Below, one piece after another: positions 15,340 to 16,222 of a stretch of DNA of 64,000 bases. Within the stretch, counting starts at the first letter, position 1, and every line of letters begins with the position of its first letter. A program made the position numbers and the translations under genes. Location: the NCBI RefSeq assembly GCF_016735595.1, contig NZ_JAERRB010000004.1, positions 372,001-436,000 on the forward strand, in the 5' to 3' direction. This DNA comes from Chryseolinea lacunae (GTDB lineage Bacteria; Bacteroidota; Bacteroidia; Cytophagales; Cyclobacteriaceae). Below the pieces are notes generated by a model. The model was not told the origin of the DNA. It worked only from the letters and a program-made list of their open reading frames with translations, and made no database searches.

Positions 15340-15483
15340 TCAGCAGCAACGCGCCGCGCAACAACAACACATACGCGCGTCGTTGTTCAAGGCAATGCAA
15401 ATGAACAGATAGAGATTTTCGAATGAAGCACGCAAGCGTTGAACGCTTGATCCGGAGATGATGATGTGACTGATGTTTTTCAT
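15340..15483 (-). CDS. Polycysteine leader peptide of the met operon (47 aa)
   Basis: A small ORF from ATG 15483 to TGA 15340 begins MKNISHIIISGSSVQRL and ends NNDARMCCCCAARCC. Six of its last nine codons are Cys (TGT TGT TGT TGC ... TGC TGC), directly before the stop. An internal ATG at 15372 could give a minimal 10-residue leader, MCCCCAARCC. The start lies 10 bases after the closing stem of the SAM-I aptamer and the stop 131 bases before metY. ACGCGC (15380-15375) can pair with GCGCGT (15354-15349), placing the four-Cys run in the loop. By analogy with cysteine-responsive polycysteine leaders described in mycobacteria and with amino-acid attenuators generally, I infer that ribosome stalling at these codons reports cysteine supply. 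Translation is not proven. Confidence 0.65.
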   Translation of the reverse strand: MKNISHIIISGSSVQRLRASFENLYLFICIALNNDARMCCCCAARCC

Positions 15484-15492
15484 TTTTTAACC

Positions 15493-15594
15493 GTTTATAT
15501 TTTCCGCCTTGGCGGATCAGGATTTAGCACCTTTCTTTTAAGGAGGTTGCTAGCGTTTCTTAGAGCCTGTCTCTCCACGCTTCTTTATAAAGCG
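15493..15594 (-). ncRNA. SAM-I (S-box) riboswitch aptamer
   Basis: Read on the minus strand, all core S-box elements occur in order. P1 is CTTTATA with TATAAA at the end. P2 is GCGT/ACGC with an inner GAG/CTC pair replacing the commoner GGG/CCC. The conserved GCAACC follows, then a short P3, the invariant AAGGTGCTAAATCC and P4 as TCCGCC-AA-GGCGGA. S-box RNAs bind S-adenosylmethionine and switch off methionine genes. There is no clear terminator after it; instead the leader-peptide ATG comes 10 bases later, so control may act through that ORF. Confidence 0.9.
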
Positions 15595-15628
15595 ATTAAG
15601 CAGAAGTGCTTATTCGACTTTGATACCA

Positions 15629-15659
15629 CAAACGTAGAGTCTGGGAGCTATGTTTCCAA
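15629..15659 (-). promoter_or_regulatory. Promoter of the SAM-I / metY-metX-hom transcript
   Basis: A perfect Bacteroidota promoter on the minus strand: TTG at 15659-15657, 20 bases of spacer, then TACGTTTG at 15636-15629. Transcription should start near 15622, about 28 bases before the aptamer. Confidence 0.8.
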
Positions 15660-15750: not shown

Positions 15751-16222
15751 TTACAGGGTGCTCTTCCGGATGAGCATGATCTGGCCCGCATGATACAAAT
15801 CGTGATGTACGATGCCGTGGAGGAGGATATAGAACGAGTAGTTGTAGGAGCTGTTGGGCACCGTGTCAAATAATTTGCTGCCCGGAAAAGCGTTCAGTGC
15901 GGCCATCATGTGCGTGTGCTGTGTCTCCAGATCGGCCGCGGTTTTTTCCCAGTCGGTGGCCACCGGGAAAGTTCATTTCGTCTGTCACCGCATAGCTGGC
16001 GTCGCCCTCCAGTCGCCGGGTCACAAACGTGCGCCATGCGGCCATGTGTGCCACCAGCTCGATGATGCTGTGTGTGCCGGGGATGCGTTTGTGCGCTTCT
16101 TCGGTGGTGATGCCTTCGATGGATTGTTTAACGGAAGGGCCATGCCACGCGCCCTTGTCGTAGGAGCGGGTGATGAGGATGGTGAGGTGTTCGATTTCAG
16201 GGGTCATCATAGGGATTGACAT
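15751..16222 (-). pseudogene. DinB-family protein, frameshifted
   Basis: Two frames together make one DinB-like protein of about 156 residues. The first half begins MSIPMMTPEIEHLT and contains HSIIELVAHMAAWR (first metal His). The second half has LHGIVHHDLYHAGQIMLI, the C-terminal HxxxH of the family. The frames join near 15963: the gene reads CCCGGTGGCC where CCCGTGGCC would restore MNFPVATDWEK, so one extra G breaks it. This could be a true mutation or a base-calling error. DinB proteins are four-helix metal-binding proteins, including thiol-dependent transferases. Confidence 0.75.

Follow-up and report, generated by a model that had tools for sequence, protein, structure and literature searches.

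SAM-I (RF00162) is among the best studied riboswitches, and several described systems resemble parts of the locus reported here. Polycysteine leaderless sORFs of mycobacteria (Canestrari et al. 2020, as cited in PMC9094748 and PMC13236596) are reported to respond to cysteine supply, and uORFC-8-2, a uORF with Cys codons upstream of cysS in Rhodobacterales, is proposed to act by ribosome-mediated attenuation (PMC8632094). A metabolite riboswitch and a translated uORF share one leader in the B12-controlled metE and ppe2 transcripts of M. tuberculosis (PMC11260477), one leader senses both ATP and proline codons in Salmonella mgtCBR (PMC3641672), and a SAM-I leader in Xanthomonas also senses amino-acid supply, as uncharged initiator tRNA (PMC7270179). 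Bacteroidetes transcriptome papers (including PMC9723704) mention leader peptides in general terms in the sections consulted. No description of a SAM-I aptamer in tandem with a polycysteine (polyCys) leader was found in the literature, of which subscription papers and preprints could hold one. PMC2965389, PMC9386245 and PMC9373788 were also consulted and offered nothing relevant to it.

Such a tandem lies on the minus strand of a 64,000-nucleotide stretch of Chryseolinea lacunae DNA, the whole of which is referred to as the window. Its parts are as follows:

15660-15629, minus strand: promoter-like site of the Bacteroidota type, TTTG-N20-TACGTTTG, with the -33 TTTG at 15660-15657 and the -7 TACGTTTG at 15636-15629
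15593-15492, minus strand: SAM-I (S-box) aptamer, RF00162, 75.5 bits against a gathering threshold of 44.4, full model 1-108
within 15593-15492, minus strand: 3' strand of the aptamer's P1, terminal letters AUAUAAACG
15483-15340, minus strand: leader ORF of 47 codons, ATG at +9 from the aptamer end
15369-15343, minus strand: Cys codon run, read directly from the sequence (CCCC 15369-15358, AAR, CC 15348-15343, then TGA)
15321-15316, minus strand: candidate anti-Cys element GCAACA, complementary to Cys codons UGUUGC, in alignments and folds of the Chryseolinea clade
15312-15268, minus strand: hairpin H3 (UAGC..GACC..CUGCC-loop NNGUGACR-GGCAG..GGUU..GCUA), between leader and metY, conserved in the Chryseolinea clade
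15208-13886, minus strand: metY, probable O-acetylhomoserine sulfhydrylase (Pfam Cys_Met_Meta_PP PF01053, 450.7 bits)
13803-12751, minus strand: metX, putative homoserine O-acetyltransferase (Pfam Abhydrolase_1)
12727-11465, minus strand: hom, homoserine dehydrogenase (Pfam Homoserine_dh PF00742 and PF03447)

The initial annotation had placed an S-box aptamer ahead of metY-metX-hom, followed by a 47-codon ORF ending in MCCCCAARCC with Cys at six of its final nine codons, and both readings were borne out, the aptamer by its match to the full model and the ORF by its translation, MKNISHIIISGSSVQRLRASFENLYLFICIALNNDARMCCCCAARCC followed by a stop. Its further proposal that four of the Cys codons occupy the loop of a possible hairpin found no support, as minimum free energy folds put them in the 3' arm, paired with the upstream GAACAACGACGC. 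The leader is separated from metY by 131 nt, and matched no NCBIfam family (four leaders scanned) and no Pfam family (window leader scanned). We infer the specific name of metY from sequence and gene order, and that of metX beyond its Abhydrolase_1 match.

If the promoter-like site is used, the transcript would start just 5' of the aptamer. The -7 box consensus of Bacteroidota is given as TAnnTTTG in the accessible text of PMC9723704, and among the 72 of 109 polyCys loci whose upstream sequence was long enough, TTTG-N18-22-TAnnTTTG was found 5' of the aptamer in 35 (mononucleotide shuffles, 0) and TAnnTTTG alone in 56 (4.4 expected). The gene 5' of the leader (16222-15751, minus strand) appears to encode a DinB-superfamily protein broken near 15960 into two frames that overlap, with PF12867 matching the first part at 25.9 bits and not the second; the split may reflect an assembly error or a broken gene. 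The same genome holds three SAM-I sites above the cut-off, before metY and PhyH (both with a polyCys leader) and before metH (without one).

Leaders were tallied over a main set of 259 distinct SAM-I loci (loci identical over 120 nt merged), which are related, so that counts are not independent events, and whose gene classes in the main tallies come from self-written short motifs, not Pfam. Loci at genus, family and order level numbered 202 oriented and 199 distinct over 150 nt, and class-level loci (30, and 40 more that come mainly from genomes with more than one match) were read by eye outside the 259. Among 80 named metY loci, 75 had SAM-I upstream and five had no match, one of which (L241) has only 131 bases upstream. 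The 259 do not include eight of the 75, in which the aptamer lies at least 600 nt from metY, and four of these eight (L206, L218, L219, L223) do carry polyCys leaders.

The distance from aptamer to ORF was nearly fixed, and differed by gene class. An ATG 5–20 nt past the aptamer was present at 119/122 metY, 3/4 cysH, 19/27 other and 8/16 metX loci, and at 4/14 metB-like, 0/5 hom and 5/64 metH loci (five loci at which no gene was reached and two metH_C loci belong to the 259 and stand outside this count), with a modal spacing of 8–10 nt at metY. The 3' strand of P1 was likewise distinct, TATAAA occurring in the final 11 nt of the aptamer in 90/109 polyCys loci and 29/34 other metY loci, and in 2/64 metH loci. 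Translation initiation in Bacteroidota is unusual, and A enrichment upstream of the ATG is its start signature; A was enriched before the leader ATG at -3 (0.68), -6 (0.71) and -12 to -14 (about 0.7), the last of which falls in P1, so that this part of the signature is confounded with the aptamer. Because the spacing is nearly fixed, the P1 strand distinct and terminators rare, the leader start is the probable platform of the switch. The near-fixed spacing thus suggests a refinement of the initial annotation, in which the riboswitch would act on the leader itself.

A Cys tail was scored as at least three Cys among the last 12 residues, with 100 dinucleotide shuffles of the metY leaders as the null. 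It was found in 85/119 metY leaders (shuffle mean 1.0, maximum 4), and a tail with at least four Cys in 72/119 (0.07 in shuffles). Leaders with a Cys tail totalled 109 (metY 85, other 15, no gene reached 3, metB-like 2, metX 2, cysH 2), with none at the 64 metH loci. Cys made up 44% of the tail and 2.2% of the body, and Met 9.4% and 1.0%; given the Met enrichment, cysteine and methionine are probably both read by the leader. The median was five Cys in the last 12 residues, and the last Cys stood directly before the stop in 72/109, while leader length ranged from 18 to 55 aa and the body differed widely between genera. The Cys codons comprised 369 TGT and 206 TGC, with 21/106 runs homogeneous (21.8 expected if independent), and this mixing rules out a simple-repeat origin of the run. 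By frame, TGY was counted 575 times in the leader frame and 104 and 33 times in the other two. In nine close pairs, residues changed at 3/51 Cys tail codons and 44/273 others, a difference in the direction expected of a conserved tail, from few events. These patterns are those of a tail under selection at the amino-acid level, as read from codon and residue counts. The comparison of leaders that the initial annotation had proposed thus came out in its favour in named genera such as Pontibacter, Cesiribacter, Pedobacter and Mucilaginibacter, the Cys tail being kept as amino acids while the remainder drifts; homologous leaders devoid of a Cys-run ORF, which it had named as grounds for rejection, are not the rule at metY.

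The 34/119 metY leaders without a Cys tail include those of Algoriphagus and Spirosoma, and 13 of them have at least three Cys or Met in the last 15 residues. At a further metY locus (L380, family f74), the leader spans 9–140 nt past the aptamer and carries a Met-rich tail, FMCSPSMRMRMPMSCFSYMCA, which suggests that some lineages may read Met more than Cys.

Within the genus, which belongs to Cytophagales, 22 SAM-I sites were found in six genomes. Six of these precede metH-like genes (L003, L012, L013, L016, L020, L021) and lack such an ORF; at 15 of the remaining 16 the aptamer is followed by a short ORF with a terminal Cys run, and at the last (L018) the ORF ends in HCCHS. In the genus, the start of the ORF is no more than about 13 nt away from where the aptamer ends, with the ATG of L022 just inside the aptamer. 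Chryseolinea serpens DSM 24574 (NZ_FQWQ01000001.1, L203) carries the leader. RF00162 was present in 116/118 family, 120/157 order and 141/198 class genomes sampled, in samples that overlap. PolyCys leaders stood in the usual place in ten families of the order (f1, f2, f4, f5, f9, f13, f15, f16, f19, f22) and in two outside it (f40, f61), 12 families in all; in f56 (L374, before cysH) the polyCys ORF begins 113 nt past the aptamer. Class-level loci were mostly metH, and those had no polyCys leader. Among the named genera that carry the leader are Pedobacter, Mucilaginibacter, Pontibacter, Cesiribacter and Thermonema, the first four of which we take to belong to Cytophagales and Sphingobacteriales, and the leader also occurs in MAG records titled Saprospiraceae, Phaeodactylibacter and Flavobacteriales, titles that may be wrong. 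The tandem is real, a widely conserved pairing of two known devices.

By Pfam, the gene after the leader was PhyH (L002), Sulfatase (L017), NIR_SIR_ferr (L185), PAPS_reduct (L177), AA_permease (L182, with a leader starting at GTG), Na_H_antiporter (L146), TM_HPP (L167) or CarboxypepD_reg-type (L196), and the genes after L008, L009, L313 and L315 had no Pfam match. Genes following leaders thus also include cysH, sulfite reductase, sulfatase, PhyH and transporters. The absence of the leader at metH would fit, because the step from homocysteine to methionine requires no cysteine signal.

A scan of six genomes for four Cys codons before a stop, with the aptamer ignored, gave 32 matches versus 12 in the reversed control, and among 30 inspected loci were four known tandem leaders and four new ones. 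Two of the new ones (L315, L334) follow SAM-I matches that score 26.6 and 30.1 bits, short of the gathering threshold, and have their ATG at +8. A conserved hairpin element, GGAUGCACC..GGUGG..GGUGCAUYCCG, was seen between the polyCys ORF and the next gene at L313, L315, L319, L334 and L345, at positions including G000:C2:34839, G000:C6:16958 and G000:C25:100127, with three copies in the genome of the window and 0 in the control; scanning four of these loci against Rfam gave no match to the element at E up to 0.5. By eye, L313 and L345 seem to have more degenerate aptamers, and L319 shows none.

The stretch between leader and metY was searched for intrinsic terminators (defined by a U run, at least six T in eight, with a hairpin no more than about 32 nt ahead of it, a definition that long hairpins may escape). 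A hairpin at or below -10 kcal/mol with a U run was found in 2/85 polyCys metY leaders (0.3 in shuffles), rising to 3/85 at -8 (0.9 expected) and 8/85 at -5 (5.3 expected), and the window leader held a single candidate of five pairs, with 1.3 expected by shuffles. Of the 31 metB, metX and hom leaders that lack a Cys tail, 11 had a terminator at or below -10 kcal/mol (0.6 in shuffles). Strong intrinsic terminators are frequent in these tail-less copies (e.g. L025, L104, L024, L023, L106, L028), and the group therefore has at least two SAM-I platforms. From the polyCys leader stop to metY the distance was 69–316 nt (median 128, 85 leaders), over a stretch with C 0.24 and G 0.13 (0.18 and 0.17 in the leaderless metB/metX/hom comparison); this C-rich, G-poor composition would suit Rho-dependent termination.

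Folding of the leaders brought out no alternative fold beside the clade-specific H3, and no Rfam family beyond chance matches lay between leader and metY. Simple sequestration of the metY start, relieved by stalling, is not predicted, since predicted access was nearly equal for free RNA (0.613) and for a ribosome at the Cys run (0.631) or at the stop (0.624; 80/85 leaders). A general anti-Cys pairing was likewise set aside: the Cys run paired weakly overall with the sequence that follows (mean z -0.53, 11/109 below -2), and clearly by eye in the Chryseolinea clade. Post-leader hairpins vary by clade; Pedobacter has Cys codons within a predicted hairpin, with a CUUCC/GGAAG stem after it, and Mucilaginibacter has little consensus structure.

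The H3 figures come from 15 of the 20 clade sequences, the 15 having been chosen for showing it (L210, L213 and L220 lack H3 by eye; L205 and L216 were omitted), and in these 15, 96% of cells were paired. Four pairs had changes on both sides (16/500 shuffles reach 4), and the covariation score was 0.254 versus 0.167 (0/500 shuffles); the number of pair types was not above shuffles (301/500). The loop reads NNGUGACR in 15/15 counted sequences, and its UGACA could pair with the metY start AUGUCA. ATGTCA opens metY in 14/15 H3 leaders and 52/104 others, a difference confounded by relatedness, and pairing of the H3 loop with the metY start in this clade is possible, only a lead.

We consider it rather probable that the tandem is a two-stage leader, in which SAM-I would gate the leader start and stalling within the leader would gate the operon. 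With SAM bound, P1, whose AU-rich 3' strand lies immediately 5' of the leader ATG, would be closed within the presumed initiation footprint, and the 30S subunit could not start the leader; with SAM low, P1 would open and the leader be translated. Where Cys-tRNA (and probably Met-tRNA too) is charged, the ribosome would reach the stop and the operon stay low, and where Cys- or Met-tRNA is short, it would stall near the leader stop and metY-metX-hom would be expressed. The stalled ribosome may act via metY translation, or it may keep Rho from terminating transcription in the C-rich, G-poor stretch. Classical attenuators are off in two situations, when the leader is not translated and when it is read to its end. 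Since an untranslated leader is off, SAM repression at the leader start needs no other platform, and a SAM switch on leader initiation would thus make a NOR-like gate, on only at low SAM with Cys- or Met-tRNA short. We infer SAM binding, leader translation, P1 control, stalling and the signs of the responses from sequence, and the joint logic of the tandem is plausible.

Other arrangements of the same parts would account for some of these observations. The aptamer and the leader could be two devices in series, SAM-I keeping a transcription or stability platform of its own and the leader acting separately, so that the inputs add. Such additive tandem attenuators exist, with ATP and proline in mgtCBR according to the accessible text of PMC3641672, and a Cys leader could be a later addition to an older switch; the 8–10 nt spacing, the different P1 strand and the rarity of terminators before metY nevertheless make this arrangement unlikely. 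Alternatively, SAM could control leader translation and ribosomes finishing the leader could aid metY by translational coupling, with the Cys codons as fine-tuning. The accessible text of PMC11260477 reports that ppe2 of M. tuberculosis requires uORF translation, and 6/34 tail-less leaders stop between 20 nt past and 30 nt before the metY start, but none of the 85 polyCys leaders stops within 30 nt of metY and the Cys tail would be left unexplained, so we rate coupling as quite improbable.

A functional peptide, e.g. a thiol- or metal-binding small protein to which the riboswitch is adjacent as a secondary matter, would agree with a Cys tail conserved as amino acids, but hardly with a divergent body of such variable length, outside any NCBIfam or Pfam family scanned, in an ORF tied to the aptamer, and we give it very little credence. 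One leader alone might be a coincidence, a chance ORF or a simple TGY repeat; the shuffles, mixed codons, frame bias and presence in a dozen families refute this, and its probability is negligible.

The two-stage leader, our preferred reading, would extend tentatively, with a confidence just short of even, to a gate on the scale of the phylum: an aptamer without its own platform, giving a NOR of SAM and charged Cys/Met-tRNA, in a module that recurs throughout a sulfur regulon (metY, metB, metX, cysH, sulfite reductase, sulfatase, PhyH, transporters), also in copies whose aptamers have diverged to scores below the Rfam threshold. If true, this would be a natural two-input sulfur gate, in which a riboswitch admits ribosomes to an attenuator, and would suggest control of homocysteine synthesis in these Bacteroidota that needs no intrinsic terminator. 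The signature of SAM-I, 8–10 nt, ATG and Cys tail would then be usable to trace a sulfur regulon.

Compared with the systems named at the outset, the locus shares with the mycobacterial polycysteine sORFs, as these are described in the sources cited above, a Cys-rich short ORF 5' of sulfur genes, here kept between genera. The mycobacterial sORFs are leaderless, whereas this ORF, from a different phylum, lies some 140 nt downstream of the presumed transcript start and follows a 102-nt aptamer, and its C-terminal run contains Met in addition to Cys. With uORFC-8-2 it has in common the Cys-codon uORF, which there has two conserved Cys codons and an intrinsic terminator before cysS, the accessible text (PMC8632094) not mentioning a riboswitch. 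The M. tuberculosis B12 leaders differ in ligand and phylum, and an amino-acid-reading codon run is not described in the accessible text of PMC11260477. In mgtCBR, ATP is sensed via the ORF and not by an aptamer, control is transcriptional and the signals add, as far as PMC3641672 is accessible. In Xanthomonas the tRNA binds the platform directly, and the accessible text of PMC7270179 mentions neither a leader ORF nor cysteine. As in the trp and his attenuators, a control-codon run lies near the end of a short leader ORF, but an intrinsic terminator between leader and gene is rare here. The window aptamer itself matches SAM-I, far above gathering, and is followed on the same strand by methionine-pathway genes, except that a short ORF about 8–10 nt away replaces the terminator or gene start; the fusion of SAM-I with a putative poly-Cys attenuator is the part without a match among these systems.
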